From Salipaludibacillus neizhouensis (lineage in GTDB: Bacteria; Bacillota; Bacilli; Bacillales; Salisediminibacteriaceae): 64,000 nucleotides of DNA. Positions within the stretch are counted from its first letter, which is position 1. The number at the start of each line of letters is the position of its first letter. The stretch spans positions 811,234-875,233 of the forward strand of contig NZ_KZ614146.1 in the NCBI RefSeq assembly GCF_002886185.1. The letters are read 5' to 3'. Of this stretch, positions 16,315 to 62,952 are shown one piece after another. The position numbers were made by a program, and so were the translations under genes. The notes under the pieces were generated by a model, which saw only the letters and a list, made by a program, of their open reading frames with translations, was not told the origin of the DNA and did not search any database.

Positions 16315-16455
16315 TTCGTTTAAGAATTTATATAATTGACAGCTATCTTTACGCCACAAGCATCAAGGGAAGTTCGCCCTTGATGCTTAAATGATGGTGG
16401 CTTTAAAGATCACGCTGTATTTAATAAAAGACGCTACGCGTTCTTCTTAAACGAA
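16315..16455 (+). repeat. Dispersed structured repeat, copy 1 (short form)
   Basis: This complete copy is bounded by a perfect 12-bp inverted repeat: TTCGTTTAAGAA at 16315-16326 and TTCTTAAACGAA at 16444-16455. Internal pairings are ACAGC with GCTGT, ATCTTTA with TAAAGAT, GCCAC with GTGGC, and the core arm AAGCATCAAGGG with CCCTTGATGCTT. The tail hairpin is ACGC-TAC-GCGT. It lies between panD and dinG, ending 28 bases before the dinG start. Confidence 0.85.
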
Positions 16456-16483
16456 TGAGATATTATTGAAGGAAGGTAATGCT

Positions 16484-19348
16484 ATGGAACGATTTGTAGT
16501 CCTCGATGTCGAAACAACAGGAGTTGCCTTTTCTCGGGGGGATCGTATTATTCAATTAGCTTATGCTGTAGTTGAAAATGATAAGGTTATTAATCGCTAT
16601 TCTACATATATCAATCCGGAAAGATCTATTCCAGCTTTTATAAAGTCATTGACCAATATATCGGAAGAAGACGTCATTGACGCACCCTATTTTGGTGATG
16701 TCGCACCAAAATTACTCGAAGATTTAAGTCACTCATATTTCGTTGCTCATAATGCGGAATTTGATTTAGGGTTTATAAATGAAGCATTAGTTGATGCAGG
16801 TTATTCTCCGTTTACGGGACCAATGTTAGACACTGTCGAGCTAGCAAGAATTACTTTTCCTACAGAGGAAAGCTTTCGCTTATCCAGACTAGCTGAAAGT
16901 TTTAATATGGATCATGAAAATCCCCACAGAGCGGACAGCGATGTGGAAGCAACCACGCATCTTCTCAGTGAAATATTCCGTACATTTTCAGAGTTACCTT
17001 TACTGACGCTTCAGCAATTAGAGAAGCTATCAGGGAAACTCAAAAGTGATTTAGGGTCACTGTTGCTCACATGGATTCAAAACAAAAATTTAACTGCTGA
17101 TGAAGCTCATATTGACTCCTTCCAGGGAATTGCTTTGCGGCATGATCAAAAAGTCTACGTGGAAGATGGGTTAACTGGATACGATGAATCGATGAATATT
17201 GATGATTTCCTTTCGTCTACGTTAGGAAATTCGGAGAAAATGAATACGATTATTCCAGCCTATGAAACGAGACAAGGACAGATAGAAATGATTACGTTTA
17301 TTGACGATATTCTATCTAAGGATTGCGTAGGATTAGTTGAAGCGGGTACTGGTACCGGAAAGACACTGGCTTATCTTATTCCGTCAGCTTTTTATGCTAA
17401 AAAAACGGGCGAGCCTGTTGTAGTAAGTACGGAGACCATTCAGCTACAAGAACAAATTATAAAAAATGAAATCCCAACCTTACAAAAAATCTTGCCTTTT
17501 CAGGTGAATACTGCTCTTTTAAAGGGGAGAAGTCATTATTTGTGTCTGCAAAAGTTTGAAAATATGTTAAGGAATGATCCTTTCGATTCTTATGACCGTT
17601 CCCTATCCAAAGCACAAATTTTAATTTGGCTGACAAAAACAGTAACAGGAGATGTAGAAGAATTGAGTCTTGCTTCCGGCAATTCACGTTTTTGGCAAGA
17701 AGTAGCCAGTGATTCTTCTTCGTGTTCTAGTCCATCTTGTCCATGGTTTTCGAGATGCTTCTACCAAAGAGCAAAGAAAAAATCACGGCATGCTGATATT
17801 ATCATTACTAATCATTCCTTACTTTTTTCTGATGTTATGGTCGACCACCAAGTCATTCCAAGCTATTCAACGTTAATTATTGATGAAGCCCATCACTTAG
17901 AAGAAACGGCAACGAAGCAGTTTGGCGACCGGTTAGATTACTTGACGCTCATACAACTATTAAATGATGCAGGGGGTCGCGAGAAAGACGATTGGTTACC
18001 GGATCGATTATCTCAAATACTAGATAAGAATTTATTGGAACAAACTAGTGAAATAGAAGAGTACGCAAAATTATTTAGACAAGAATGGAATGATTTATTT
18101 TTACTGTTAAATCAATATGTAACAAAAGGTACAAATGGTAAAAATGAAACTGGAAGGTTATCTAAGATTATTCATAACGAAGAGACTGTTTGGAAAAATG
18201 TTGAGGAAGCGGCTAAACGCTGTAACCAGTTATTTAAAACGTATCTGTCTCGTATTTCTTCTTTTGTAAGGGAGTTAGAAACATTTTTGGAAACGCAAAA
18301 AGGAAACAAAGGACAAATCGCTCTTGAATGGCTTGCCACGATGAAGTCTCAGCTTGAACATCAATATGAGATGTTTCATCACCTCCTTTTGTATCAAGAA
18401 GAAGGTTCGATATACTGGCTTGAGGTTGAAACTAAGGGACCGAAACAGTCTATCTCTGTGCAAGGTTGTCCAATTCATGTAGCAGAAAAACTGGCCGATG
18501 CTTTTTTCTCAAAAAAGGAACGTGTCATATTAACTTCTGCGACATTAACAGTTAATAATAAATTTGATTATGTAATGGACCGACTAGGATTAAAGGACTT
18601 TCAAGTAGAGACAAAACAAGTAGACTCTCCATTTTCATGGGATGATCAGGTGTCTTTTATGGTTCCGGACGACATGCCACTTATTCAAGAGGTTGGTGAG
18701 GAAGCATATATTGAAGCTGCAGCAATTCAAATCTACCGCATTGCACAAGTGACAAAAGGAAAAATGCTTGTTTTATTTACTTCTTACGATATGCTCAAAC
18801 GAACCTATCATCAATTGAAAAATATGTTTGATGAAACGTTTATGCTTATTGCCCAGGGGGTACAAACTAAAAGTCGCTCGAAGCTAACGAAAAATTTTCA
18901 ACAGTTTGATCAGGCTATTCTTCTTGGAACGAGCAGTTTCTGGGAGGGCGTAGATATTCCTGGAGATGATTTAAGTGCGATCGTGATGGCAAGATTGCCT
19001 TTTAGTCCTCCAAATGATCCAGTATTCAAAGCACGTTCGGACTTTTTAAAGGAGCAAGGTAAATCACCATTCATGCAACTGGCATTACCGCAAGCAATAT
19101 TACGGTTCAAACAAGGTTTTGGACGGTTAATTCGTCGCTCAACGGATCGTGGAATAGTGGTTGTGCTTGATCGAAGAATAGTTACTACAAAGTATGGCAA
19201 GTTATTCACACGCTCTCTTCCTCAAGTTCCAATGTTGGAAGGTCCTATGTCAGATTTGGAAGAACATATTTATCAATGGTTTTACGATCCATCGAGGAAT
19301 GAAGAGGGTAATACAGAGGAGTTAACAAACAATGTTGATGATTCATAA
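16484..19348 (+). CDS. dinG: DinG-type 3'-5' exonuclease / DEAH helicase
   Basis: This 954-residue protein joins an N-terminal DEDDh exonuclease (residues 1-170, start of VLDVETTG) to an XPD/DinG-type superfamily 2 helicase. Walker A is EAGTGTGKT; Walker B is DEAHH; the C-terminal helicase motifs include SATLTV, GTSSFWEGVDIPG and QGFGRLIRR. Four cysteines (354, 414, 419, 425) have C-x4-C-x5-C spacing at the last three, as in the Fe-S cluster of E. coli DinG. The ATG at 16484 after GGAAGG was chosen over the TTG at 16466. Role: DNA repair and removal of unusual structures. It overlaps the next gene by 17 bases. Confidence 0.95.
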   Translation: MERFVVLDVETTGVAFSRGDRIIQLAYAVVENDKVINRYSTYINPERSIPAFIKSLTNISEEDVIDAPYFGDVAPKLLEDLSHSYFVAHNAEFDLGFINEALVDAGYSPFTGPMLDTVELARITFPTEESFRLSRLAESFNMDHENPHRADSDVEATTHLLSEIFRTFSELPLLTLQQLEKLSGKLKSDLGSLLLTWIQNKNLTADEAHIDSFQGIALRHDQKVYVEDGLTGYDESMNIDDFLSSTLGNSEKMNTIIPAYETRQGQIEMITFIDDILSKDCVGLVEAGTGTGKTLAYLIPSAFYAKKTGEPVVVSTETIQLQEQIIKNEIPTLQKILPFQVNTALLKGRSHYLCLQKFENMLRNDPFDSYDRSLSKAQILIWLTKTVTGDVEELSLASGNSRFWQEVASDSSSCSSPSCPWFSRCFYQRAKKKSRHADIIITNHSLLFSDVMVDHQVIPSYSTLIIDEAHHLEETATKQFGDRLDYLTLIQLLNDAGGREKDDWLPDRLSQILDKNLLEQTSEIEEYAKLFRQEWNDLFLLLNQYVTKGTNGKNETGRLSKIIHNEETVWKNVEEAAKRCNQLFKTYLSRISSFVRELETFLETQKGNKGQIALEWLATMKSQLEHQYEMFHHLLLYQEEGSIYWLEVETKGPKQSISVQGCPIHVAEKLADAFFSKKERVILTSATLTVNNKFDYVMDRLGLKDFQVETKQVDSPFSWDDQVSFMVPDDMPLIQEVGEEAYIEAAAIQIYRIAQVTKGKMLVLFTSYDMLKRTYHQLKNMFDETFMLIAQGVQTKSRSKLTKNFQQFDQAILLGTSSFWEGVDIPGDDLSAIVMARLPFSPPNDPVFKARSDFLKEQGKSPFMQLALPQAILRFKQGFGRLIRRSTDRGIVVVLDRRIVTTKYGKLFTRSLPQVPMLEGPMSDLEEHIYQWFYDPSRNEEGNTEELTNNVDDS

Positions 19349-20633
19349 TGTAAACATTTTAACGATGAATAAAGAGGAGGAAAATTTTAACGGTTTTCTC
19401 ACAGTGGAGGGAAATGTCTTTTCAGAGGTAAAAAAGGGGACGCCACCTCAAGAATTAATCGATCAAATGGATGACGTAATGGATGGTAATAATAAATGGT
19501 TAATGCCCGGACTTGTTAATACACACGGCCATTTAGGAAGCTCTCTTCTTAGAGGGGCAGGCGACGATATGCCGTTAATGGAATGGCTGGAAAAAGTGAT
19601 GTGGCCAAATGAAGGCCGCTTTGACAAAGAAACGGTTTCTATTGCTGCGCAGGTGGCAATGATGGAAATGATTAGATCAGGAACAACAACGTTTCTTGAC
19701 ATGTATCATCTTCATATGGATGACATGGCGGAGTTAGTATTGGAAAAAGGAATGCGAGCCGTTTTATGCAGAGGAATGATCGGATTAAGTTCAGAAGAGG
19801 AACAAGAACAGAAAATCCAAGAATCAGTGGACCTGTTTCATAACTATCATGGTACGGGCAATGGTCGAGTTTCAGTGGCAATGTCTCCTCATGCTCCATA
19901 TACTTGTCCCCCTCCTTTTTTACAAAAAGTAGCTTCTGCCGCAGTAGAACATGGGATGATGATTCATACGCATTTGGCTGAAACAAGAGGTGAAGTCGAA
20001 AGGCACGTAAAAGAGTATGGGAAAAGACCTGTTGCCCATTTAGAAGAGTTAGGTATATTTAATCAACCGTGTCTTATAGCTCACGGGGTTCATCTGAATG
20101 AAGACGAGATTCAAATTTTAAAGAAACATCATGTTGCTGTCTCTCATAATCCGATTAGTAATTTGAAATTAGGTTCTGGAATTGCCCCGATACCCGGGAT
20201 GATTTCAGCTGGCTTAACAATAGGTATTGGCACAGATTCTTCAGCAAGTAATAATAATTTAGATATGTTTGAAGAGATGAGAATGGCGGCACTTCTGCAC
20301 AAGGGTGTACATGAATCTCCGAGTGTGACAAACAGTGAAGAAATACTTGCCATGGCAACTCATCAAGGAGCTAAAGCTCTTCGAATTAAAAATGTAGGCA
20401 AAATAGAAGCAGGTTTTAAAGCAGATTTTATATTGATCGATGCAGAACAACCGCATTTAACACCTGCGAACGAGTCTACTATGCAGTCACATCTTGTTTA
20501 TTCAGCTAAGGGGAGTGATGTAACAGATGTTTTTATCGATGGAATAGCTCAATACTCTCATCGAACACTCTTGAAATTTGATGAAGAGAAGATATTATAT
20601 CAGGCTAATCATTTGGCGAAAAATTTTGTCTAA
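19332..20633 (+). CDS. mtaD: Amidohydrolase, probable MTA/SAH deaminase
   Basis: This 433-residue metal-dependent amidohydrolase matches the 5-methylthioadenosine/S-adenosylhomocysteine deaminase (MtaD/SsnA-like) group. Metal-binding motifs are VNTHGHLGSSLLRG near residue 65, HTHLAETRGE near 220, and IGIGTDSSASNNNLDMFEEMR near 300, with His and Asp ligands in the expected order. The C-terminal GFKADFILID is the usual closing beta-structure. The start overlaps the dinG end by 17 bases; ATGs at 19332 and 19338 are both possible. Related guanine or chlorohydrolase-type deaminases share these motifs, so the substrate is the less certain part. Confidence 0.85.
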   Translation: MLMIHNVNILTMNKEEENFNGFLTVEGNVFSEVKKGTPPQELIDQMDDVMDGNNKWLMPGLVNTHGHLGSSLLRGAGDDMPLMEWLEKVMWPNEGRFDKETVSIAAQVAMMEMIRSGTTTFLDMYHLHMDDMAELVLEKGMRAVLCRGMIGLSSEEEQEQKIQESVDLFHNYHGTGNGRVSVAMSPHAPYTCPPPFLQKVASAAVEHGMMIHTHLAETRGEVERHVKEYGKRPVAHLEELGIFNQPCLIAHGVHLNEDEIQILKKHHVAVSHNPISNLKLGSGIAPIPGMISAGLTIGIGTDSSASNNNLDMFEEMRMAALLHKGVHESPSVTNSEEILAMATHQGAKALRIKNVGKIEAGFKADFILIDAEQPHLTPANESTMQSHLVYSAKGSDVTDVFIDGIAQYSHRTLLKFDEEKILYQANHLAKNFV

Positions 20634-20714
20634 CATATCGATTCACGTAAGATCTATGATAAAATAATGAAGTATGCACGAGGTATTGTTTAGAAATCTT
20701 TAGGAGGAATCACG

Positions 20715-20888
20715 ATGGGTGAAAAGGAGATTGAGATGATCGCTACATTAAAAATAGATAAGTGTACCGATTTGTATAAGGTAGTAGATACACTGAATCG
20801 TACCTTGAAAAAAAGAGATTTAATGTTCGGTCTCGCTCTCGATGATAATGAAAAAGAAAAAATGATATTTACTATTTACGAAACGTGA
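20715..20888 (+). CDS. ypmA: Small conserved protein YpmA
   Basis: This 57-residue protein starts at an ATG following TAGGAGG. Its sequence closely follows B. subtilis YpmA: a short acidic N terminus, then LYKVVDTLNRTLKKRDLMF and a closing MIFTIYET. It sits where ypmA is expected, between the dinG cluster and ypmB. YpmA (DUF4264) has no known function. The gap to ypmB is 10 bases, suggesting co-transcription with ypmB. Confidence 0.92.
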   Translation: MGEKEIEMIATLKIDKCTDLYKVVDTLNRTLKKRDLMFGLALDDNEKEKMIFTIYET

Positions 20889-20898
20889 GGGATAAAGC

Positions 20899-21411
20899 AT
20901 GAAAGCTTGGATAATGTCGATCTCTATTATGATCATTGTAGGCTTTTTAGCTTTTGGCTATTATCTCTATCAAGTGACAACGGATCCGTTGGAAGCTCGC
21001 GAAAATGCAGCGATACAATTAGCAGGAGAACAGGTAGACATTGCAGAAGTTAGAGAGGTAGAATATTATCATGGTCGCAGGTCCTATCAGGTAGTTGATG
21101 CTATCGATTCAGAAGGAAATGAGTTGTACATATGGGTAGAAGAAGTAAATCAATCTGATGAGGATGAATCAAATGAATCCGAAGTAGAGCCCACTATTGT
21201 AGTTCGGGATCACACTGAGGGACTGACAAAAGATGAAGTAACTTCCCTTTCTCAAGAAGAACTGTCTATGTCACGTTTAAAATCCGTACGATTAGGAATG
21301 ATTGGTTCAACACCAGTTTATGAAGTGAACTATGTGGACGATACGGACCGCCATTCTTTTTATTATGTTACATTCGAAGATGGAACGTATATCCGACATT
21401 ATAATTTTTAA
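20899..21411 (+). CDS. ypmB: Membrane-anchored protein YpmB (DUF5590)
   Basis: The 170-residue product has one N-terminal membrane helix (about residues 4-24) and an outward-facing region with the two-lobed cystatin-like fold expected of the YpmB family. Conserved patterns include EYYHGRRSYQVVDA and, in the second lobe, RLGMIGSTPVYEVNYVDD. The middle linker is rich in Glu, Asp and Ser. No enzymatic residues are evident. The GAGGGATAAAGC site supports the ATG. It follows ypmA and precedes aspB, as in B. subtilis. Confidence 0.9.
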   Translation: MKAWIMSISIMIIVGFLAFGYYLYQVTTDPLEARENAAIQLAGEQVDIAEVREVEYYHGRRSYQVVDAIDSEGNELYIWVEEVNQSDEDESNESEVEPTIVVRDHTEGLTKDEVTSLSQEELSMSRLKSVRLGMIGSTPVYEVNYVDDTDRHSFYYVTFEDGTYIRHYNF

Positions 21412-21533
21412 TGGTAATCACCATAATCTTTATTTTCAAACAAGTGATGTTACAGACTTATGGTTGGTTTAGGTTAGTTGTCGACTGACAAGGTTCAGTA
21501 ACAAAGCTAATTATATAAAAGGAGAGATAAACT

Positions 21534-22718: not shown

Positions 22719-22745
22719 ATGAGGGAAGTTTATTATGCTTTACCA

Positions 22746-22777
22746 GAAGCACCTACATATATTTCGTAGGTGCTTCT
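22746..22777 (+). repeat. Isolated palindromic hairpin after aspB
   Basis: AGAAGCACCTAC pairs perfectly with GTAGGTGCTTCT. No T run follows, so it is a poor intrinsic terminator. It closely resembles the inner hairpin (GTAGCACCT...AGGTGCTAC) of the long-form dispersed repeats, and may be a solo relic of that module. Confidence 0.55.
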
Positions 22778-31722: not shown

Positions 31723-31853
31723 AGAAAAGAATTTATAAATTAGCAGCTACCTTCACACCGCAAGTATCAAGGGAAACCCACCCTTGATACTTAAAAGATG
31801 GCGGCGGAAGCTGACGCTGTATGTAACAAAAGACGGCTATGCCGTTTTTCTTA
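31723..31853 (+). repeat. Dispersed structured repeat, copy 2 (short form, C/G variant)
   Basis: The core arm is AAGTATCAAGGG with CCCTTGATACTT. The outer pairings use variant bases (CAGC with GCTG; ACCGC with GCGG-type). The tail hairpin is ACGGC-TAT-GCCGT followed by TTTTTC. It fills most of the yppE-lipoprotein gap. Confidence 0.85.
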
Positions 31854-36813: not shown

Positions 36814-37935
36814 GTGAGAGTTATTTCAGTAGAGCCAACACCGAGTCCAAACACAATGAAGTTTACGTTAAGTGAATCTCTCCCTCATGGTACAGCACAT
36901 AATTTTACATTAAAAAATAAAGAAGATTCACCATCTTTTGTTCAAGAAATATTTGAAGTAGAAGGGGTGAAAGGGGTTTATCATGTAGCAGATTTTCTTG
37001 CCGTCGAGAGAAACCCTAAAGTTGACTGGAAAGTTATTTTGCCAAAAGTAAGACAAGTTTTTGGGGAAGAGGCAGAAGAAGAGCAGGGTACTAAAATCGA
37101 TGAGCACTTCGGTGAAGTAACAGTGAGTATTCAAGAATTTAAAGGTATTCCTATGCAAGTAAAAGTATCTGATGGAGAAAATGAAGAAAGAGTAGGGTTG
37201 CCAGAAAGATTTGTTGATTCTGTTAGTAAAGCAACGTTAGAAGAAGATAATGTTGTCCTCATGAGAAAGTGGAAAGAACAGCGACCTAGATATGGAGATT
37301 TAAAAGACGTAGGGAATGAAGTCGCAGAAGAACTTCAGGCAACGTTTACAGAGACAAGATTGAAGGATTTAGTCGAAACTGCTACGCAATCCAATGATAG
37401 CCTTACGCTTGAAAAACCAAAAAAAGAATGGTTAAAAGTTACGGAAGATATGCTGGATGATGAAGATTGGAAAAAGCGTTTTGCTGTTTTAGAACAAATG
37501 AATCCTGAAATCGATGATTTACCTGTTTTAGAAAAAGCCTTGAAGGATGAAAAACCATCGATCCGCAGGCTTGCAACTGTTTATTTAGGGATGATTGAAG
37601 ACGATAAAATTATCCCATATTTAGAAAAAGCCTTGAATGATAAAACAGTTACCGTTAGAAGAACTGCAGGAGATGCGATGTCGGACATTGGAAGTAAAGC
37701 AGGAATACCGGCAATGATAAGATCGCTGCAAGATAAAAGTAAACTTGTTCGATGGCGCGCAGCTATGTTCTTATATGAAGTAGGAGATGAAACAGCCATT
37801 CCAGCTCTGAAGGAAGCAGAGGAAGATCCAGAGTTTGAAGTAAGTATGCAAGTGAAAATTGCATTGGAAAGAATTCAAGGTGGCGAAGAGGCAAGAGGTT
37901 CAGTCTGGAAACAGATGACGGAAGCCTTCGAATAA
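36814..37935 (+). CDS. cvfC: CvfC-like protein: Nfu-N domain plus HEAT repeats
   Basis: The 373-residue protein joins an N-terminal Nfu-type domain (residues 1-85; EPTPSPNTMKFTLS and YHVADFLAVERNPKVDW) to a C-terminal array of HEAT-like repeats (about residues 215-360; DEKPSIRRLATVYLGMIEDDKIIPYLEKALND). This is the layout of conserved virulence factor C of Staphylococcus aureus. The Nfu cluster-binding CxxC is absent, so Fe-S scaffolding is unlikely; the HEAT repeats suggest protein binding. The start is GTG after GAAAGGGG. Function in non-pathogens is not known. Confidence 0.85.
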   Translation: MRVISVEPTPSPNTMKFTLSESLPHGTAHNFTLKNKEDSPSFVQEIFEVEGVKGVYHVADFLAVERNPKVDWKVILPKVRQVFGEEAEEEQGTKIDEHFGEVTVSIQEFKGIPMQVKVSDGENEERVGLPERFVDSVSKATLEEDNVVLMRKWKEQRPRYGDLKDVGNEVAEELQATFTETRLKDLVETATQSNDSLTLEKPKKEWLKVTEDMLDDEDWKKRFAVLEQMNPEIDDLPVLEKALKDEKPSIRRLATVYLGMIEDDKIIPYLEKALNDKTVTVRRTAGDAMSDIGSKAGIPAMIRSLQDKSKLVRWRAAMFLYEVGDETAIPALKEAEEDPEFEVSMQVKIALERIQGGEEARGSVWKQMTEAFE

Positions 37936-37983
37936 AATAATGGATGTCTCAGTTGTCATAGCTTGAGACATCCTCTTGCTTTT

Positions 37984-38116
37984 TAAGAGATAATTTATAA
38001 AAGAAGCAGCTACCTTCTCGCCGCACGTATTCAAGGGAAACCCATCCTTGATACTTAAATGATGGCGGCGGAAGCTGACGCTGGATTTAATAAAGACGGC
38101 TCTGCCGTTTTTATTA
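37984..38116 (+). repeat. Dispersed structured repeat, copy 3 (short form), tandem with copy 4
   Basis: The GCCGC and GGCGGC arms replace the GCCAC/GTGGC arms of copy 1, keeping pairing. The core arm is degraded (GTATTCAAGGG with CCTTGATAC). The tail is ACGGC-TCT-GCCGT plus TTTTT. It is followed within five bases by copy 4. Confidence 0.85.
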
Positions 38117-38120
38117 AGAG

Positions 38121-38250
38121 TTAAGAATTTATAAGTTGACAGCTATCTTTACGCCACAAGTATCAAGGGAAACCCACCCTTGATACTTAAATGATGGTGG
38201 CTTTAAAGATCACGCTGTATTTAATAAAAGACGCTTTGCGTTTTTCTTAT
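38121..38250 (+). repeat. Dispersed structured repeat, copy 4 (short form), reaches the DDAH-gene stop codon
   Basis: Pairings are ACAGC/GCTGT, ATCTTTA/TAAAGAT, GCCAC/GTGGC, core AAGTATCAAGGG/CCCTTGATACTT and tail ACGC-TTT-GCGT. The right end touches the stop codon (38247-38249) of the minus-strand gene, so this copy is the only hairpin available to end that transcript. Confidence 0.88.
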
Positions 38251-39104
38251 TTATCACGTACTAGAGGCATCGTACAGCATCGAAAAGACCCGCCGGATTT
38301 GATAATTTCGGTAATATCAACTTCCAGAACCTCATATCCCCGGATACGAAGTTGCTGGTTCACTTCTCTGTTAATTGGTAAACTAAGAATTTTTTTATTA
38401 CCTATGGACAGAACGTTTGTTCCTAGAGTGAATTGCTCTTCCTCATTTACTTCAATAAGTTCAAAGTGACTAGCTAGTATTTTCTTCTCTTTATTACTAA
38501 AGGCATTAGAATAAATCAACGCTTCTTTTTCGGAAATAATATTGAATACACAATCTAGATGAAGATATTTTTCCAAAAATGGAACAGTGATTACCTCATA
38601 CTCATGTAATATCTTTTGCATATGGTTAATTGCATTTTGGTTCGTCCGATCGCTTAATCCAATAAATAATTGATGGCCATTAATGATGACGTCTCCGCCT
38701 TCAATCATGTCACCTATTAAGTTATAGTAGGAGATGCCGTTTTGTTCCAGCCACGTTTTCAAGACATTTTCTTCTCCAATTCGAGGAGAATGAGCCATAT
38801 CTGCAACAAACGTTGTTTGACCTAAAGTAAAGCCGATATCCCGTGTAAACACTTGTTCAGGAAATTCCTCCATCTCAGGGAGAAGTGTGACTTGGACGTC
38901 ATGCCTTCTTAACGTTTCTACAAGGTTTTGATGTTGTTCCATTGCTTTTTCTATGTGTAATCCTTCATCTTTAAAATGCTTTTGGGTTTCGTTAATTAGC
39001 GATTTGATGGTCATATGTTTTGGTTCACAAAGAACCACATGCTGTAGCTTGTCATATTCAGTACGGCAGTATGACTTCACAGTTTTATTTGATAATAATG
39101 ACAT
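38247..39104 (-). CDS. DDAH/arginine deiminase-type amidinohydrolase
   Basis: This 285-residue protein has the guanidino-group-modifying fold of dimethylarginine dimethylaminohydrolase and arginine deiminase. The key residues occur in order: FTRDIGFTLG (substrate Asp), GDMIEGGDVI (Glu), YLHLDCVFNII (catalytic His) and SGGSFRCCTMPLVRDK at the C terminus, with Cys276 or Cys277 as nucleophile. It is close in layout to B. subtilis YkgA. Likely substrates are methylarginines or a related guanidino compound. TGGAGGTTTACT precedes the ATG. No arginine-pathway genes lie nearby. Confidence 0.85.
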   Translation of the reverse strand: MSLLSNKTVKSYCRTEYDKLQHVVLCEPKHMTIKSLINETQKHFKDEGLHIEKAMEQHQNLVETLRRHDVQVTLLPEMEEFPEQVFTRDIGFTLGQTTFVADMAHSPRIGEENVLKTWLEQNGISYYNLIGDMIEGGDVIINGHQLFIGLSDRTNQNAINHMQKILHEYEVITVPFLEKYLHLDCVFNIISEKEALIYSNAFSNKEKKILASHFELIEVNEEEQFTLGTNVLSIGNKKILSLPINREVNQQLRIRGYEVLEVDITEIIKSGGSFRCCTMPLVRDK

Positions 39105-39346
39105 AGTAAACCTCCAATTGAATTTCTAATTTCACTTAGTATTTCTTGTTTGAACATCTTTATGAGTAATATTAAAACAATTTTGCGGGGATAATTGAAT
39201 TTCACACACTAAGTCGCTCTACTTATAAGTGTATAGTCTCGGAATGCTCGCCTATCATTCACGGAAAGCGGGCGGTAATTGTTTCGGAACAGACTTCAGT
39301 GATAATAAAGCTACAAAATAAGAAAAAAGACGCTACACGTTTTTCT
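39105..39346. other. Intergenic region with decayed repeat remnants
   Basis: No gene is visible. Bases 39260-39295 (ACGGAAAGCGGGCGG, then TTTCGGAACAGAC) resemble the end of the widespread GCGGAAAGCG-type repeat of Bacillaceae. Bases 39319-39349 (AAAAAGACGCTACACGTTTTTCTTAT) are an isolated tail of the dispersed structured repeat with broken pairing. Confidence 0.4.
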
Positions 39347-39466
39347 TATAAGAATTTGACAGCTATCTTTACGCCACGCGCATAAAGGGAAGTTCGCCCT
39401 TGATGCTTAAATGATGGTGGCTTTAAAGATCACGCTGTATTTACCAAAAGACACTACGCGTTTTTG
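39347..39466 (+). repeat. Dispersed structured repeat, copy 5 (short form, partly decayed)
   Basis: The left part and GCCAC/GTGGC and ATCTTTA/TAAAGAT pairings are intact. The core arm has lost some pairing (GCGCATAAAGGG with CCCTTGATGC), and the tail hairpin is broken (ACAC-TAC-GCGT). Confidence 0.8.
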
Positions 39467-39550
39467 GCATCAACTAATAATATGGAAAGTAAAGGTAGTA
39501 TGTGGTAGCATAAAAATAGCTGTAATATACAAAAAAATGGAGGAATACAT

Positions 39551-45207: not shown

Positions 45208-45364
45208 ATAAGAAAAAAGGCAGAGCCGTCTTTTATTAAATACAGCGTCAGCTTCCGCCGGCTTAAGTAGCACCTACTTAGTGCGTGTAAGTGCTACTCG
45301 AAAGGTGGCGGTTTTCCCTTGACAGACGTGGCGTAAAGATAGCTGTCAACTTATACTTTCTTAT
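45208..45364 (-). repeat. Dispersed structured repeat, copy 6 (long form, reverse orientation)
   Basis: On the minus strand the copy starts with GACAGCTATCTTTACGCCAC and carries the extra inner hairpin GTAGCACTTAC/GTAGGTGCTAC in place of the simple core loop. The tail is GGC-TCT-GCC with a T run. It is the only full copy in this orientation and lies between rsgI and the minus-strand TelA pair. Confidence 0.85.
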
Positions 45365-45371
45365 CTCATAT

Positions 45372-45405
45372 AAAAAAAGATGCAACCTTTTGGTTGCATC
45401 TCTTT
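45372..45405 (-). terminator. Terminator of the telA operon
   Basis: AGATGCAACC pairs with GGTTGCATCT; on the minus strand seven T follow, directly after the stop codon of the 308-residue gene. Confidence 0.85.
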
Positions 45406-50216: not shown

Positions 50217-50293
50217 CAAGGAAAATTGCTGATGTAATAGGTGTAAGGTGACTTTCATCTTACATCTTTTTCATGTTTAAGGAGAGAAATATC

Positions 50294-51010
50294 ATGTCAG
50301 AAGAAAACATGAATATGCTGGATCACTTAGATGAACTGCGTAAAAGAATCATGATTGTTGTCGCAACATTTATCGTCTTATTAATTGCCGTTTTTATTTA
50401 TGTACAAGATATTTATGAATGGTTTACGAAAGATCTTGATATGCCATTAGCTGTTTTAGGACCTCTTGATATTATTGTTATTTACTTCACCTTAGCAGCT
50501 GTATTAGCTTTCGCTTTAACTCTTCCTGTACTTGTATTTCAGATTTGGTTATTTGTAAGACCCGGTTTAACCATGAAAGAGCAAAAGGCTTCGCTAATTT
50601 ATATTCCAGCATCGTTTATATTATTTTTAGCAGGTCTTGCTTTTGGGTTTTATGTTGTACTGCCTATTGTTCTAAGTTTCTTATTAGAGCTTGGTAGCGG
50701 GACATTCGAAACAATGTTTACGGCAGATCGTTACTTTAACTTTGTTCTCCGTATGACATTACCATTCAGTATCTTGTTTGAGATGCCTCTCATTGTAATG
50801 TTTTTAACTACAATTGGTTTAATTACACCAGCCGGTATGAAAAAAAACAGGAAATATGCGTATTTTGCGCTCATCGTTTTGAGTGTTTTAATATCTCCAC
50901 CAGATTTATTATCTGATATCCTAGTAATTATCCCACTTCTTTTCCTTTACGAAGTGAGTATTAGTATGGCTAAACTTGTATACAAGAAAAAAACAAAAAG
51001 CGATGACTAG
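50294..51010 (+). CDS. tatC: Sec-independent translocase protein TatC
   Basis: TatC recognises twin-arginine signal peptides. The 238-residue protein has six membrane helices, the N-terminal HLDELRKRI motif and a P-x-LP-like FEMPLIVMFLTTIGLITP region typical of the family. The ATG at 50294 follows AAGGAGAG; the upstream ATG at 50273 is rejected on spacing. It forms the minimal TatA-TatC pair and ends at a terminator. Confidence 0.97.
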   Translation: MSEENMNMLDHLDELRKRIMIVVATFIVLLIAVFIYVQDIYEWFTKDLDMPLAVLGPLDIIVIYFTLAAVLAFALTLPVLVFQIWLFVRPGLTMKEQKASLIYIPASFILFLAGLAFGFYVVLPIVLSFLLELGSGTFETMFTADRYFNFVLRMTLPFSILFEMPLIVMFLTTIGLITPAGMKKNRKYAYFALIVLSVLISPPDLLSDILVIIPLLFLYEVSISMAKLVYKKKTKSDD

Positions 51011-51037: not shown

Positions 51038-51069
51038 AAAAAGGATGCCGATTATCGGCATCCTTTTTT
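51038..51069 (+). terminator. Terminator of tatAC
   Basis: AAAGGATGCCG pairs with CGGCATCCTTT, followed by T. Confidence 0.88.
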
Positions 51070-51074: not shown

Positions 51075-51227
51075 ATAAGAATGTATAAGATGACAGCTAC
51101 TTTTACGCCACACGTATCAAGGGAAACCCCACTCGAGTAGCACCTAAACGTACTACGTAGGTGCTACTCGGGGTGGCGAAAGCTAACGCTGTATTTAATA
51201 AAAGACGGCTATGCCGTTTTTTGTTAT
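51075..51227 (+). repeat. Dispersed structured repeat, copy 7 (long form)
   Basis: Pairings: CGCCAC with GTGGCG; the added inner hairpin GAGTAGCACCT with AGGTGCTACTC (perfect); tail ACGGC-TAT-GCCGT plus six T. It ends nine bases before the stop codon of dck (minus strand), so it probably also ends that gene's transcript from the opposite side. Confidence 0.87.
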
Positions 51228-52581: not shown

Positions 52582-52803
52582 AGCAGAAACCTCCCTTCAA
52601 AAATTTTGTCGAATTATAACAGCAACGTTAATTCTACCATATCTGTAGAGTTTTCAAATGCTTTCTAGTAAATTTTTTGCACTAAATGCGATATATTTTC
52701 AAAATGTAGGTCAAAGAATAATATACCTAGGCGTTTTCCTTAACAACTTTTGATATTTATAGTAAAATAGTTATAGAAACTTCTTGATTAAGGGGGCGTG
52801 TAT

Positions 52804-53655
52804 ATGAATACCCAAGTAAAAATAGTAACAGATTCGACATTAGATTTACCTATGGATGTTATTAAAAAACTAGATATTACTATCGTACCTCTAACAGTAA
52901 CTATTGATGGGGAATCTTATTTAGACGGTATTGATATTTCATCATCAGAGTTTTCCAAAATGCTTGTGAACGCAAAAGACGTTCCAGGGAGTTCGCAACC
53001 ATCAACCGGACAATTTCTGGAAGTATATGATCGACTTGGTAAGGATGGGAATCCTATTATTTCGATACATATGACGAGTGGCATGAGTGGAACTTTTAAT
53101 TCTGCTAAAACAGCTTCAGAGATGACAGATCTTGATGTGACTGTTGTAGATTCAAATTTTATATCTGTAGCATTAGGTTTTCAAGTTCGAGAAGCCGCTG
53201 AGATGGCCTTAAAAGGGGCAAATGTTCAAGAAATTTTAGACAGATTAGAACAGGTACGGAAAAATAGTTCACTTTATATCATGGTGGATACATTAGAGTA
53301 CTTGGCAAAAGGCGGAAGAATTGGAAGAGGACGAGCTCTTTTAGGTTCGTTGTTAAAAATAAAGCCAATAGCCTCTTTAGATGATGGTGTTTATACTCCA
53401 ATTAACAAAGTTCGTACATATATGCAAATGATTAAATTTATGAAAAAAAAGTTCGAAGAAGAGACTTCAGGTAAAATAGTAAAAGGAGTAGGAATTGCTC
53501 AAATAGAGGCAAAAGAATTAGCGATTCAATTAAGAGATGTCCTAAGTCAAATGACTGATTTTGAAGACATATTTATTATTGAAACAACACCCATTGTTAG
53601 TACCCACACGGGACCAGGAGCATTGGCATTAATGTATTATTTTGATGATAAATAA
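52804..53655 (+). CDS. DegV family fatty-acid-binding protein
   Basis: DegV (FakB-like) proteins bind a fatty acid and present it to the kinase FakA for use in phospholipid synthesis. The 283-residue protein starts at the ATG at 52804 after AAGGGGGCG. Family features are IVTDSTLDLP at the N terminus, SSQPSTGQFLEVYD, HMTSGMSGTFNSA, YLAKGGRIG and the C-terminal STHTGPGALALMYY, whose His/Thr/Gly contact the carboxylate. Several paralogues usually exist in a genome, so the specific chain-length preference is unknown. Confidence 0.92.
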   Translation: MNTQVKIVTDSTLDLPMDVIKKLDITIVPLTVTIDGESYLDGIDISSSEFSKMLVNAKDVPGSSQPSTGQFLEVYDRLGKDGNPIISIHMTSGMSGTFNSAKTASEMTDLDVTVVDSNFISVALGFQVREAAEMALKGANVQEILDRLEQVRKNSSLYIMVDTLEYLAKGGRIGRGRALLGSLLKIKPIASLDDGVYTPINKVRTYMQMIKFMKKKFEEETSGKIVKGVGIAQIEAKELAIQLRDVLSQMTDFEDIFIIETTPIVSTHTGPGALALMYYFDDK

Positions 53656-53660: not shown

Positions 53661-53693
53661 AGGTCATGACCATGGTTGGTCATGACCTTTTTT
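53661..53693 (+). terminator. Terminator of the degV gene
   Basis: AGGTCATGACC pairs with GGTCATGACCT, followed by six T. Confidence 0.88.
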
Positions 53694-53694
53694 A

Positions 53695-53848
53695 CAGAAA
53701 GTATAAGATAACAGCTCTATTCATGCTGCACGAATCACAGGGAAACCCACCTCCTTTCGAGTATCACTTATACACACTACGTAGGTGCAACTAGGGGGGG
53801 CGAAATATCACGTTGTATGTAACAAAAGACGCTACGCGTTTTTCTTAA
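53695..53848 (+). repeat. Dispersed structured repeat, copy 8 (long form, decayed)
   Basis: The overall layout is that of copies 7 and 10, but the inner hairpin (GAGTATCACTTA with TAGGTGCAACTA) and outer arms have many mismatches. The tail ACGC-TAC-GCGT plus T run is intact. Confidence 0.75.
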
Positions 53849-58283: not shown

Positions 58284-59705
58284 ATGATTAAACGAAATCT
58301 TTTTATTGGCGGAGAATGGATTGAACCTGAATTTTATCAGGATCGCTACTCCCCATTTACGAATGAGAAAATAGCAGAGGTACCTCTGGCAACAATCCGA
58401 GAAGTCGATGCTGCCCTCGAATCTGCACATAATGTTAAGCGATTGTTTAAGAAAATGCCCGCCCATAAGAGAGCAGATATTTTAGAGAATGTTGTAAATC
58501 TTATAGAAGAAAATAGAGAAGAATGTGCCAGGCTTATTGCAATGGAGGCAGCAAAACCGATTCAAATAGCACGTGGGGAAGTAACCAGAACGATGATGAC
58601 TTATAAATTTGCAAGTGAAGAGGCAAGGAGAATGCCCAATGAATTTATAAATATGGATGCTGCTCCAGGTGGTGAAAACCGTGTTGCCTATACTATAAGA
58701 GAACCTGCGGGAGTAGTCGCTGCAATTACTCCATTCAACTTTCCGATGAATTTAGTGGCCCACAAAGTGGGACCTGCTATTGCGTCAGGTAATCCTATAG
58801 TACTTAAACCTGCTTCACAAACACCTCTCTCAGCATATTTTATAGCGGAACTTTTTGATAAAGCAGGACTTCCTAAAGGGATGTTAAATGTAATAACCGG
58901 AAAGGGCAGTGTTGTGGGGGAGGCATTAGTAACGGATTCAAGGACCTCTGTCGTAACCTTCACAGGAAGTGCTGAAGTGGGAATTGCAATGAGAAATAAA
59001 GCTGGTTTAAAAAAGATGACATTGGAGCTGGGTTCTAATTCGGCAATTATCATCGATGAGGGAGTAAATCTTGCTGAAATTGTTGATCGAATTGTCACTG
59101 GATGTTTTGCATTCCAAGGGCAAGTTTGTATTTCCGTTCAAAGAATTTACGTTCATGAGTCAATTAAGAAGGATTTATTGAAAAAAATGAAAGCTAGACT
59201 AGAGAAGTATATTTTTGGGGATCCATTAGATGATGCAACTGAAATGTCAGCAATGATTTCACCCGAAGATAAAGATCGGGTGTTATCCTGGATACATGAA
59301 GCAGTAGACGAAGGTGCTAATGTGATCACAGGTGGCGAATCCGAAGGTAATATGATCCAACCGACAATCTTGGACAATGTTCACTCTAAAATGAAAGTTT
59401 CTTGTGAAGAAATATTTGGACCGGTAGTAACGGTAACTTCTTTCATAGAATGGCAAGAAGCGATTGACTATGTGAATGAGTCAGAATACGGTCTACAGGC
59501 TGGCGTTTATACTGATAATTTGAAACGAGCCTTTTATGCTTCTGAGGAACTTGAAGTAGGAGGCGTGATGATCAATGACTTTCCATCGTTTCGACTTGAC
59601 CATATGCCGTACGGTGGCGTTAAAAAAAGCGGAATGGGAAGAGAAGGTATTAAATATGCCATCGAAGAAATGACAGAAATGAAACTTGTAACTTTTAAAA
59701 AATAA
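58284..59705 (+). CDS. NAD(P)-dependent aldehyde dehydrogenase
   Basis: The 473-residue protein is a typical ALDH superfamily enzyme. The N-terminal stretch LFIGGEWIEPEFYQDRYSPF, the NFPMNLVAHKVGPAIASGNP segment, the catalytic Glu in LELGSNSAI and the nucleophilic Cys in FQGQVCISVQRIYVHES are all present, followed by EEIFGPVVTVT. The ATG at 58284 after CCGAGGTG is chosen over an open upstream frame. It resembles the lactaldehyde/phosphonate-semialdehyde branch; the substrate cannot be fixed from sequence. Followed by a terminator and a truncated repeat. Confidence 0.92.
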   Translation: MIKRNLFIGGEWIEPEFYQDRYSPFTNEKIAEVPLATIREVDAALESAHNVKRLFKKMPAHKRADILENVVNLIEENREECARLIAMEAAKPIQIARGEVTRTMMTYKFASEEARRMPNEFINMDAAPGGENRVAYTIREPAGVVAAITPFNFPMNLVAHKVGPAIASGNPIVLKPASQTPLSAYFIAELFDKAGLPKGMLNVITGKGSVVGEALVTDSRTSVVTFTGSAEVGIAMRNKAGLKKMTLELGSNSAIIIDEGVNLAEIVDRIVTGCFAFQGQVCISVQRIYVHESIKKDLLKKMKARLEKYIFGDPLDDATEMSAMISPEDKDRVLSWIHEAVDEGANVITGGESEGNMIQPTILDNVHSKMKVSCEEIFGPVVTVTSFIEWQEAIDYVNESEYGLQAGVYTDNLKRAFYASEELEVGGVMINDFPSFRLDHMPYGGVKKSGMGREGIKYAIEEMTEMKLVTFKK

Positions 59706-59728
59706 AAAGACTTTTTAAAGGTTACACC

Positions 59729-59782
59729 AGAAAGTATAAGATGACAGCTCCTTTACGCCACACGCACATCAACGGAATGTGA
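59729..59782 (+). repeat. Dispersed structured repeat, copy 9 (5' fragment)
   Basis: AGTATAAGATGACAGCTCCTTTACGCCACACG matches the left end of copies 7 and 8. The right half is missing and is replaced by an unrelated terminator. Confidence 0.7.
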
Positions 59783-59787
59783 AATGT

Positions 59788-59833
59788 AAAAACTAGACTA
59801 TTGCTTACTACAAGCTTTAGTCTAGTTTTTTTG
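59788..59833 (+). terminator. Terminator of the aldehyde dehydrogenase gene
   Basis: AAAACTAGACTA pairs with TAGTCTAGTTTT, followed by T; loop about 17 bases. Confidence 0.85.
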
Positions 59834-59991
59834 GTTTTTCTGTGTTGATCAGGCAAAGATTCGTGGGCAACTCCCAGTAAATAGAAATTTACCTATTAAT
59901 CTACTAACGACATTCTAATCCTTGCTCTATTAATATATATAAAGTGACCCATCAACATACCTTTTGAAAAAACTTTTAAGGAGATGTTTTC

Positions 59992-60750
59992 ATGAAAAAA
60001 TTTCTTATTCTAAGTATATTAGCAGGTGCCATTTATTTTTCAGTTCCTAGTGAATCTTTTGCATCTTCATACAAAGTGAAAGAAGGAGACAGCCTTTATT
60101 TTTTAAGTCAGCGTTATGGTATATCTATCACTGAATTGAAAAACGAAAATAATCTGTTAACTAACGAAATAATTTCAGGGGACTATCTTGTTATTCCTAC
60201 TAATGCAAAACACTCTCACACGGTTAAACCTGGGGAATCTTTGTGGAGCATTGCGACAAAGTATGGAATGACGATTGCACAGCTACAACAGAAAAATTAC
60301 TTATCATCTTTTATTGTATATCCTGGACAAGCATTAGCTGTATCTGGAAAGGGAGTTAAAATTTCAAATCATGGATTTAGTGAGGAAGAGAGAAACCTAT
60401 TAGCACGCCTCGTTCAATCTGAAGCTAAAGGGGAGCCTTTTAAAGGCAAAGTAGCCGTTGCAGCAGTTGTCTTAAATAGAATGGCGCATAAAGATTTTCC
60501 ATTCAATATTAAAGAAGTCATATATGAAACGCATGACTCAGGAAGAATATTTGCTTTTGAACCCGTTCAAAATGGAGAAATAACTCGTCATGCAGATCAA
60601 GAATCTATCCGAGCGGTCGAAGAAGCAATGAATGGGTATGATCCTACCAATGGGGCAGTTTATTTCTTTAATCCGACTACTTCCACTTCCAAATGGATTG
60701 AATCGAGAGTAGTAAGACAACGTATAGGTAATCATGTATTTAGTTTCTAG
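59992..60750 (+). CDS. Cell-wall hydrolase: two LysM domains plus SleB/CwlJ domain
   Basis: The 252-residue exported protein has a signal peptide (residues 1-24, cleaved near SFASS), two LysM peptidoglycan-binding domains (YKVKEGDSLYFLSQRYGI and HTVKPGESLWSIATKYGM) and a C-terminal Hydrolase_2 domain of the SleB/CwlJ type from about residue 130 (LARLVQSEAKGEPFKGKVAVAAVVLNRM, with the likely catalytic Glu in QSEAKGE). This is the layout of YkvT and spore-cortex lytic enzymes. It may act in germination or growth; sequence alone does not decide. AAGGAGATG precedes the ATG. Confidence 0.92.
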   Translation: MKKFLILSILAGAIYFSVPSESFASSYKVKEGDSLYFLSQRYGISITELKNENNLLTNEIISGDYLVIPTNAKHSHTVKPGESLWSIATKYGMTIAQLQQKNYLSSFIVYPGQALAVSGKGVKISNHGFSEEERNLLARLVQSEAKGEPFKGKVAVAAVVLNRMAHKDFPFNIKEVIYETHDSGRIFAFEPVQNGEITRHADQESIRAVEEAMNGYDPTNGAVYFFNPTTSTSKWIESRVVRQRIGNHVFSF

Positions 60751-60760
60751 AGAATACTGA

Positions 60761-60793
60761 AAAGAGGCATCCAAAATAGGATGCCTCTTTTTA
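60761..60793. terminator. Terminator after the cell-wall hydrolase gene
   Basis: AAAGAGGCATCC pairs with GGATGCCTCTTT, followed by TT. It lies between convergent genes and may serve acsA as well. Confidence 0.8.
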
Positions 60794-60840
60794 AAGGTGA
60801 AAACCTTTTATAATACTAGAATTCTGGTTAAAAGAACAAA

Positions 60841-62553
60841 CTAATCATCCATAGAAGATAAATCTCCGGCAGGTTCGTTTAATTCCCATGCTTTTAATAC
60901 ACGACGCATAATTTTACCACTGCGTGTTTTCGGCAGTTTATCCGTGAATTCAATTTCTTTCGGTACAGCATGTGCGGAAAGTTCAGTTTTTATGAACGTT
61001 TTGATTTCTTTCTCCAATTCTTCGGAATACTCATGCGAGGGATTGAGTACAACGAATGCTTTAATAATATGACCTCTAATTTCATCAGGTTTACCGATAA
61101 CTCCGGCTTCAGCTACAGCTTTGTGTTCGACTAACTTACTTTCAATTTCAAAAGGACCGACACGCTCGCCGGCAGTCATAATTAAGTCATCGTTACGACC
61201 TTGGAACCAGAAATATCCGTCTTCATCCATATATGCAGTATCACCGGATACATACCAGCCTTCAAAGGCAAAATATTCATTGAATTTCTCGTCATTTTTC
61301 CAAATCTTACGCATTTGAGAAGGCCATCCTTTTTTAATGGCTAGGTTACCCATCTCATTTGGCGGCAGTTTTTTTCCGTTGTTATCAATGATGGCTGCTT
61401 CAATACCTGGAAACGGTTTACCCATCGATCCAAGTTTAATAGGCTCACTTAAATAGTTACAAATAAGCATGGCACCTGTTTCTGTCATCCACCAAGTGTC
61501 ATGAATACGGTGCTTAAAGACCTCCCATCCCCAACGAACTACTTCCGGATTTAGTGGTTCACCGACACTCAGGATGTGACGAATGGAACTTAGATCATAT
61601 TTTTTAATGACATCTGAAGGTGTCGACATTAACATTCTAAATGCGGTAGGAGCACTATACCAAACTGTGACATTATTTTTCTCAATCGTATCGTACCAAT
61701 CGTCAGGAGAAAACCTTCCCCCTCGTATGACGTTTGTCGCACCATTTAACCAAGGTCCGAAAATTCCATAAGAGGTACCCGTTACCCAACCGGGGTCGGC
61801 AGTACACCAGTAAATATCATCCTCACGTAAATCCAACACCCATTTTGCGGTTTGGTAATGTTGAATCATTGCTTGATGCACGTGGTAGACACCTTTTGGT
61901 TTCCCGGTGGACCCCGATGTATAATGAAGGATAAAGCCATCTTCTAAGTCCATCCATTCAATCGCAGAATCATCATCTGTACACGCTTTCATTTCTTTGG
62001 AATAAGAAAAATGTTTTTCATCTGTTTTTACATCATCACCTACTAGAATTATCTTTTTAAGGTGAGGGAGTTCGTCAACTGGAATACGGGAGACTAGTTC
62101 AGGAGTTGTTACGATAACACTTGCTTCGCTATCCTCGAGTCTGCTCTTTACGGCATCTTTCATAAACGCTTCAAAGAGAGGACCAACAACTGCACCCATT
62201 TTAATTGCTCCTAGAAGAGCGATGTATAACTCAGGTGCTCGGGGCATGAATATAAAAACTCGATCACCTTTTTCAACATCTAATTTTCGAAACATATGAG
62301 CTGCTTGATTTGTTAGTTTTTTTAATTGCTCAAATGTGTAAGTTTCATTGCGGGAAGGATCGGAATATAATAATGCTTTTTTCGCTCCTCTTCCTTCTTT
62401 AACATGTCTGTCGATCGATTCATAGGCTATATTAATTTTGCCTGTTTTTGACCAGGTAAACACATCTCTTACATCGTCCCATGAAAAAGAATTTTTTGCA
62501 GATTCATAGTTTTGAAGTTGATAGTTACCTTGTTTAGGTTGTAAAATTTTCAT
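60841..62553 (-). CDS. acsA: Acetyl-coenzyme A synthetase
   Basis: AcsA activates acetate to acetyl-CoA by way of acetyl-AMP. The 570-residue protein has the AMP-binding signature HYTSGSTGKPKGVYHVH, the WWMTETGAM adenine-site motif, YVSGDTAYMDEDGYFWFQGR and the conserved C-terminal lysine region PKTRSGKIMRR, a known site of regulatory acetylation. The ATG at 62553 after TTGGAGGTG was chosen; ATG 62568 is in frame but overlaps that site. In B. subtilis acsA is next to the acu genes; they are not visible here. Confidence 0.94.
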   Translation of the reverse strand: MKILQPKQGNYQLQNYESAKNSFSWDDVRDVFTWSKTGKINIAYESIDRHVKEGRGAKKALLYSDPSRNETYTFEQLKKLTNQAAHMFRKLDVEKGDRVFIFMPRAPELYIALLGAIKMGAVVGPLFEAFMKDAVKSRLEDSEASVIVTTPELVSRIPVDELPHLKKIILVGDDVKTDEKHFSYSKEMKACTDDDSAIEWMDLEDGFILHYTSGSTGKPKGVYHVHQAMIQHYQTAKWVLDLREDDIYWCTADPGWVTGTSYGIFGPWLNGATNVIRGGRFSPDDWYDTIEKNNVTVWYSAPTAFRMLMSTPSDVIKKYDLSSIRHILSVGEPLNPEVVRWGWEVFKHRIHDTWWMTETGAMLICNYLSEPIKLGSMGKPFPGIEAAIIDNNGKKLPPNEMGNLAIKKGWPSQMRKIWKNDEKFNEYFAFEGWYVSGDTAYMDEDGYFWFQGRNDDLIMTAGERVGPFEIESKLVEHKAVAEAGVIGKPDEIRGHIIKAFVVLNPSHEYSEELEKEIKTFIKTELSAHAVPKEIEFTDKLPKTRSGKIMRRVLKAWELNEPAGDLSSMDD

Positions 62554-62662
62554 GCAGAACACCTCCAAAAAAATACTTTAAATTACTTTCTATAGCAATC
62601 ATATACCTAATATTCTGATACTTCAAATAAGAACTTATTTAAAGACAGAGATTTTTTTAAGA
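62554..62662. promoter_or_regulatory. Upstream region of acsA
   Basis: A/T-rich 109 bases between acsA and the repeat pair. The GGAGGTG ribosome site of acsA is clear. A CcpA-type site was looked for and not found with confidence. Confidence 0.3.
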
Positions 62663-62819
62663 GATAAGAATGTATAAAATTGGCATCTACCTTCACACCG
62701 CGTGTATCAAGGGAAACCCGCCTTCTTTCGAGTAGCACCTTCACGCATTACGTAGGTGCTACTCGGCGCGGTGGAACTAACGCTGTATTTAAGAAAAGAC
62801 GCTTTGCGTTTTTCTTATA
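62663..62819 (+). repeat. Dispersed structured repeat, copy 10 (long form), tandem with copy 11
   Basis: The outer arms differ from copy 7 but still pair (CACCGCG with CGCGGTG). The inner hairpin GAGTAGCACCT/AGGTGCTACTC is perfect. The tail is ACGC-TTT-GCGT plus T run. Copy 11 starts within about five bases. Confidence 0.87.
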
Positions 62820-62821
62820 GT

Positions 62822-62952
62822 ATAATTTATAAGTTGACAGCTATCTTTACGCCACAAGCATCAAGGGAAGTTCGCCCTTGATGCTTAAATGATGGTGGCT
62901 TTAAAGATCACGCTGTATTTAATAAAAAACAGCAGAGCTGTTTTTCTTATAG
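62822..62952 (+). repeat. Dispersed structured repeat, copy 11 (short form)
   Basis: The body is nearly identical to copy 1 (core AAGCATCAAGGG/CCCTTGATGCTT), but its tail hairpin is ACAGC-AGA-GCTGT followed by TTTTTC, a third, fully compensated tail type. Confidence 0.88.

Follow-up and report, generated by a model that had tools for sequence, protein, structure and literature searches.

Structured miniature repeats of Salipaludibacillus neizhouensis: a very probably mobile family targeted to intrinsic terminators

Introduction

Ten near-full copies and one 5′ fragment of a structured repeat lie within 64,000 nucleotides of Salipaludibacillus neizhouensis DNA (contig NZ_KZ614146.1, positions 811,234 to 875,233; referred to as the window). 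What kind of element are they, and how did they come to stand where they are? The initial annotation of the window described a dispersed, intergenic family that is or was mobile. It named three possible kinds, an element like a miniature inverted-repeat transposable element (MITE), a palindrome like the repetitive extragenic palindromes (REPs), and a dispersed RNA. We followed up the repeats, here called family 1, across the genome and its relatives. The family is very probably mobile and targeted to intrinsic terminators. This targeting, and the sharing of ends among different cores, go beyond the initial annotation. Miniature non-autonomous elements are a known kind, and the terminator-targeted insertion appears to be what is new.

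Association with intrinsic terminators

A covariance model, R1, was built from 36 copies (alignment A2). It reports all ten near-full window copies at E ≤ 4.2e-14 and at least 150 matches in the genome (G000; 5.51 Mb, 11 contigs), the weakest listed having E = 4.3e-15. R1 was trained partly on window copies, and the genome matches beyond its 36 training rows are independent. The repeat family is real, and the genome-wide covariance search proposed for it does find further copies.

The copies stand behind intrinsic terminators far more often than random points do. A script searched the copy's strand for a hairpin (stem of at least 5, with at least 3 GC pairs) plus a T-tract in the roughly 22 nt 5′ of the model start. 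The 71 scored copies are the 76 best-ranked of 90 minus 5 directly following another copy. A terminator lies directly upstream in 26 of the 71. For random intergenic points the figure is 71 of 1011 where the preceding gene is on the same strand (Fisher p = 1.6e-11) and 12 of 1155 where it is on the opposite one; mirrored 3′ flanks give 0 of 75. The detector is crude: at ordinary gene ends, it sees a terminator within 120 nt in 70 of 206 cases. In the 5′ flanks of 51 copies, conservation is slight beyond about −30 from GACAGC, but there is a T-run at −23 to −28, and 1–4 variable nt separate the T-tract from the left end. The terminator sequences vary from site to site, except where they are tails of neighbouring copies; hence the terminators belong to the host. 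The upstream gene is co-oriented with the element in 51 of 67 copies. Since some copies directly follow another copy's tail hairpin, the element re-creates its own target.

The same arrangement recurs outside the species. G017, from another genus, has a 145-nt version of divergent sequence, and a hairpin plus T-tract was scored upstream of 20 of its 28 copies, under a looser T-tract rule and without a control. In two of these 20 the hairpin is another copy's tail, and in one it lies farther upstream. The remaining eight divide into three that abut the tail of another copy, two with larger-loop hairpins seen by eye, two with a T-run but no hairpin detected, and one with neither. Most G017 copies begin immediately next to the T-tract, and at least six copy pairs are joined exactly head to tail. 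In the genus of G039, G084 and G150, which belongs to another family, a terminator was seen 5′ of 12 of 17 loci, by eye and without a control.

One occupied site can be compared with empty counterparts. The window copy at 53693 stands behind the terminator of a degV-like gene; in all six genus-mates fetched (G001 and G003–G007), the ortholog of this gene has a hairpin and T-rich tract after it but no element, and the region downstream differs in G003, G005, and G007. The earlier view of a family that is or was mobile is supported. No target duplication of 3–8 nt was found, the best excess being 8 of 90 copies with a common 3-mer where 2.2 were expected, and 4 of 27 in G017. Orientation is biased as well. 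On contig C1, which holds 100 of the matches listed, the plus strand carries 41 of the 50 copies below 1.9 Mb, and the minus strand 47 of the 50 above. The GC skew of the sampled arms is +0.114 and −0.111, and this change of sign indicates that the copies mostly read with the leading strand. They do so in 88 of 100 cases, slightly more often than sampled open reading frames (ORFs) of at least 150 aa (407 of 532; p = 0.006). Among seven sampled copies running against the arm, five have their upstream gene on their own strand.

The copies and adjoining features of the window are as follows.

16320..16449, plus strand: copy, short core (R1 136.1 bits)
31725..31853, plus strand: copy, short core, second arm subfamily (R1 131.4 bits)
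37942..37984, plus strand: host intrinsic terminator (hairpin plus T-tract) of gene 36814-37935, directly 5′ of copy 37987
37987..38115, plus strand: copy, short core, whose tail hairpin is the upstream neighbour of copy 38121 in tandem (R1 115.1 bits)
38121..38249, plus strand: copy, short core, top model score (R1 151.1 bits)
39246..39348, plus strand: 3′ end of a different, ~450-bp family with a common tail hairpin, directly 5′ of copy 39341 (blastn against the L166 copy, E = 2e-20)
39341..39469, plus strand: copy, short core, shortened left end (R1 114.0 bits)
45210..45364, minus strand: copy, long core, behind a minus-strand gene (R1 82.7 bits)
45372..45400, minus strand: host terminator (hairpin plus T-tract) 5′ of minus-strand copy 45210
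51042..51069, plus strand: host terminator (hairpin plus T-tract) of tatC-like gene 50273-51010 (Pfam), 5′ of copy 51075
51075..51225, plus strand: copy, long core (R1 99.2 bits)
53661..53693, plus strand: host terminator of degV-like gene 52798-53655 (Pfam), 5′ of copy 53693; site empty in six genus-mates
53693..53847, plus strand: copy, long core, partly decayed (R1 75.1 bits)
59729..59785, plus strand: 5′ fragment with left end and part of left arm (by eye; no R1 report at E ≤ 0.01)
62664..62817, plus strand: copy, long core, first of tandem pair (R1 83.0 bits)
62819..62949, plus strand: copy, short core, second of tandem pair (R1 132.1 bits)

The ten near-full copies of the initial annotation are all recovered, and by eye the repeat at 59729, listed there as partial, is a 5′ fragment. 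Two further fragments call for correction. The one near 39319 belongs to the ~450-bp family, and the one near 5138 has no R1 match and may be a decayed right arm or chance. The window copies sit between plausible genes, and a 92-aa ORF over copy 38121 is in turn overlapped by a real gene. Of 76 copies in the wider sample, 3 overlap an ORF of at least 150 aa by more than 40 nt. The family is intergenic and gene-free, as had been described.

Structure of the element

The element is about 130 nt long with a short core and about 155 nt long with a long core. The left end is A-rich, spans some 17–20 nt, and reads (C)AAGATAAGAA(T/A)(T/G)TATAA. Nested stems ACAGC/GCTGT, ATCTTTA/TAAAGAT, and GCCAC/GTGGC enclose the core hairpin, the whole being long and bulged. 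In the short core, the 5′ arm and loop of the hairpin contain CAAGGGAAACCC; the long core carries a GTAGCACCTA...TAGGTGCTAC stem. The right end, AATAAAAGAC (AAAAGAC)-hairpin-GTTTTTCTTA, contains the second, terminator-like hairpin. By eye, the two ends have about 6 nt in common (TAAGAA/TTCTTA) in G000, but not in the G017 version.

The stems show compensatory change, which agrees with the structure first described. Changes on both sides occur in 30 of 37 stem pairs, amounting to 168 cells in 90 rows versus 57.9±5.3 in shuffled rows and at most 45 with slid partners; this alignment was made with the model and leans toward the structure. In the MAFFT alignment A2 of 36 copies, there are 33 both-side cells versus 10.7±2.5 in shuffles. 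The weak point of the covariation case is that further pair types in A2 show no excess (22 versus 21.9 in shuffles). Among non-Watson-Crick departures on the element strand, G-U outnumbers A-C by 194 to 108 in the 76 best rows.

Copy number and distribution

Two contiguous 200-kb blocks contain 23 matches at E < 1e-4 and 30 at E ≤ 0.01, and extrapolation from these 400 kb gives roughly 300–320 copies genome-wide. Most of the 40 sampled stretches were picked with match positions known, whereas the two blocks were taken as contiguous blocks. The density first estimated, one copy per 5 kb, is near that of the window (one per 6.4 kb) and well above that of the two blocks (about one per 17 kb). R1 overlooked at least one copy with a long core (L165, near 11949). 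G000 has 202 occurrences of the exact right-end pattern and 0 of its reversed control.

With strict filters, under which weak matches may be lost, R1 matched none of 7 genus-mates and 7 of 52 other relatives (G025, G017, G010, G008, G032, G034, and G039). It scored 56 of 57 candidates in G025 and 39 in G017. Copies of G000 and G025, which belong to different genera, are 79–87% identical (3 × 6 copies), more alike than orthologous DNA within the genus (68–74%, one stretch compared). This suggests that the family arrived horizontally or stands under strong constraint. The exact right-end pattern was found in 2 of 35 genomes of the family, namely G000 and G025 (33 occurrences). Of 397 genomes sampled from the order, 10 contain it: G000, G039 (121), G150 (109), G084 (16), G075 (3), and five others with one each. 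The single matches in the five are not such ends, and by eye one of the three in G075 is element-like. In plasmids, neither one short-core copy nor the versions from G010 and G039 had a match. A phage search with the tandem pair (62650-62965) gave none, and an IMG/VR scan with two right-end patterns gave 0 matches for each. A loose end pattern matched 45 stretches, mostly chance ones to judge by their scattered organisms.

Similar ends on different cores

The ~450-bp family of G000, family 2, has a left end similar to that of family 1 and a right end of the same type. It is structured and carries the motif GGCGGACGCTTTCCGCGGGC...GACCCCGCAGAGCG... Besides window 39246-39348, family 2 stretches are found at the following positions.

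L154: 18390-18473
L166: 18823-18935
L175: 1461-1567 and 10525-10632

Weak blastn relatives of family 2 occur on plasmids of Priestia, Niallia, Planococcus, and Radiobacillus (6 records); one of the six records of that search, a xylB match in Bacillus velezensis, is not the repeat and was set aside. At L154 6088, L178 533, and L191 15782, left and right ends are fused without a core, the right ends being inexact. In G039, G150, and G084, from another family of the order, both ends are common with G000 and the cores are other. Similar ends on different cores, together with the coreless fusions, suggest that the ends are what is mobilised and that the core is replaceable.

The 11-mer arms of the long core, GTAGGTGCTAC/GTAGCACCTAC, recur in REP-like arrays with a 91-nt period, one of them beside a RAYT-like (REP-associated) Y1 gene:

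L194: 2256-2767
L178: 4071-4359
L185: 2829-2935
L191: 4152-4243

Of 82 such 11-mers in 864 kb, 62 lie within family-1 copies. The arm order in the arrays is opposite to that in the long core, which makes the resemblance a lead to, not proof of, REP capture. A third recurrent terminator-like repeat, GGGCACTGAAAAAGT...ACTTTTTCAGTGCCC, is followed in several places by a CCTATTAGGAGCG hairpin. It was seen near L161 1626, L157 1432, L189 12183, and L185 16594, and also 5′ of the group II intron of L085.

Proposed mechanism and alternatives

Our preferred reading, held with doubt and confidence in equal parts, is that family 1 consists of small, gene-free, non-autonomous mobile DNA elements of 130-155 nt that are moved like an IS200/IS605-type (PATE-like) or a bcr1-like element. 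A trans-acting enzyme would recognise the hairpins of both element ends on an exposed strand, and would join the element behind a hairpin plus T-tract, where insertion just behind a terminator should do the host no harm. The most likely enzyme would be an HUH-Y1 (IS200/IS605-like) transposase acting on the single-stranded lagging-strand template, an assignment we make a shade more tentatively. Y1-type transposition is favoured because of the hairpins near both ends, the lack of duplication, the strand bias, and the T-rich targets. Four Y1 elements in related genomes (L212, L213, L308, and L309) likewise start, by eye, behind a hairpin and T-rich tract.

Several observations weigh against this reading. 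At the Y1 loci scanned or read, a subset of all, no Y1 gene is flanked by family-1 ends. Y1 genes occur in 12 of 14 and in 8 of 8 genomes, carriers and non-carriers alike, many of them without the family, and G017, with its well-preserved copies, has a single Y1 match, which lies in an IS605 whose ends are different. Between T-tract and left end the nucleotides are variable, unlike the fixed target of IS200/IS605. About two thirds of copies have no script-detected terminator, although the script equally misses two thirds of gene ends. The support for mobility is comparison of sequences. No end pair enclosing a gene, as expected of an autonomous partner, was seen in 864 kb of G000; its 61 exact right ends comprise 58 of family 1, one of family 2, and two solitary ones without a left end within 4 kb. 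Two candidate links to an enzyme were rejected. The left end of family 2 by the RAYT gene of L107 has another flank that does not match, and the presence of neither reverse transcriptase nor Y1 follows carrier status.

By eye, IS200/IS605 elements and group II introns of relatives (L212, L213, L308, and L309; L085, L086, and L088) also stand behind a hairpin plus T-tract. Terminators thus look like a common landing place for several kinds of mobile DNA.

The main rival to Y1-type movement is a retro-route, because three group II introns with visible 5′ ends (G000, G008, and G010) also stand directly behind terminators. On this account, a structured RNA ending at its own terminator would be converted to DNA behind other terminators by a group II intron reverse transcriptase, an enzyme class known for terminator targeting, as in a short interspersed element (SINE). 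The terminator-like hairpin at the end of the element and the surplus of G-U departures on its strand fit such an RNA, and according to a review, IIC introns insert at intrinsic terminators and are primed from the replication fork (PMC4424553). We consider it unlikely, since carriers G025 and G039 have no RVT_1 match while non-carriers G002, G003, G005, and G006 have some, and the element ends are unlike group II intron ends; it too is argued from sequence. An equally improbable reading is an undescribed terminator-homing cassette system, with interchangeable structured cores, one end pair, any intrinsic terminator as landing site, and a target re-created at each insertion. It would move as transcribed RNA (a bacterial SINE) or via an unknown recombinase reading the hairpin plus T-tract as integron integrases read attC.

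Selection rather than mobility could account for the strong compensatory change, the same-strand upstream gene in 51 of 67 copies, and the terminator-like tail, if the repeats were copies of the useful part of a functional RNA at mRNA 3′ ends, such as a stabiliser, a secondary terminator, or a small RNA. An element so often behind a terminator would be seldom transcribed with the gene, though, and the family is absent from 7 of 7 genus-mates, also at the same degV-like gene. Truncated copies, tandem pairs, and swapped or lost cores likewise make a functional RNA quite improbable. We give as little credence to a REP/REPIN-like palindrome mobilised by resident RAYT transposases. The long-core 11-mers shared with the array beside a RAYT-like gene point that way, whereas the short core lacks them and the arm order in the arrays is reversed. 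Moreover, at the loci read by eye the RAYT genes carry other short palindromes at their flanks, not family-1 ends, and no RAYT was found in G017. Least probable of all is untargeted insertion, with copies persisting behind terminators because they are harmless there. Some copies do lack a detectable terminator; the 71 of 1011 random same-strand points versus 26 of 71 copies, and the T-tract immediately adjacent to most G017 copies, speak for targeting.

Comparison with known elements

Among described elements, bcr1–bcr3 (group A) of the Bacillus cereus group come closest in size, copy number, and MITE-like behaviour; family 1 was compared with them by description only. They are described as 147–167 bp long, folded, MITE-like, and mobile, with tens of intergenic copies per genome; their mobility is tied to a TTTAT motif, and bcr1 is said to occur in the B. 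cereus group only (PMC2267715, PMC6542083, PMC3446304). That motif is not seen as a fixed end of family 1, which has a T-run in its left flank and CTTA at its right end.

IS200/IS605 elements and the PATEs, their ends-only derivatives, are outlined in PMC7290912 as having a hairpin near each end and no target duplication, the PATEs being short, gene-free, and thought to be moved in trans. Family 1 resembles PATEs in all of these structural features. It differs in that no insertion sequence with family-1 ends was found at the Y1 loci scanned or read, and in the terminator-like hairpin that forms its right end. For IS200/IS605 elements the target is a fixed tetra- or pentanucleotide, 3′ of which they insert; family 1 has a T-tract upstream, with 1–4 variable nt before the left end.

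Group IIC introns, as presented in PMC4424553, share with family 1 the position behind intrinsic terminators on the same strand. Unlike them, family 1 has no ribozyme or reverse transcriptase, has other ends, and is 130-155 nt long. In the window, Rfam reports no intron and, at gathering score, only the pan motif (RF01749) at 13634-13727, 5′ of pantothenate genes; in 37950-39500 it reports nothing at E ≤ 1. Within what was searched, no named repeat or RNA family matched.

Pneumococcal BOX elements have interchangeable modules between two end modules, target duplications, and terminal inverted repeats, and SPRITE is a terminator-like repeat near gene 3′ ends; the source describes neither as inserting behind existing terminators (PMC3049150). 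REPs are given in PMC3733652 as 20–40 bp long, with one end tagged by GTAG or CGTC. Family 1 shares with REPs and REPINs the form of intergenic palindromes mostly downstream of genes, and its long-core stem has the 11-mer of the local REP-like arrays. At 130-155 nt, with GTAG-type arms only in the long core, it is not of REP size. Classical MITEs have terminal inverted repeats of 15–30 bp and a target site duplication. Family 1 matches them in being short, gene-free, and present in many copies, so that MITE-like describes its mobility, whereas the ends with only about 6 nt in common and the lack of duplication separate it from a classical MITE. No terminator-targeted miniature family of such kind was found in titles or abstracts of the literature, a search whose coverage mostly excludes subscription papers.

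Significance

Terminators offer thousands of harmless and structurally alike sites per genome. A miniature element that recognises terminators and brings its own would explain how hundreds of insertions are tolerated. If the reading is true, family 1 would join the group IIC introns as a further class of mobile DNA that targets terminators. The similar ends with swapped cores provide a handle toward finding the enzyme. With a terminator-like hairpin in every intact copy, the family may also reshape mRNA 3′ ends.

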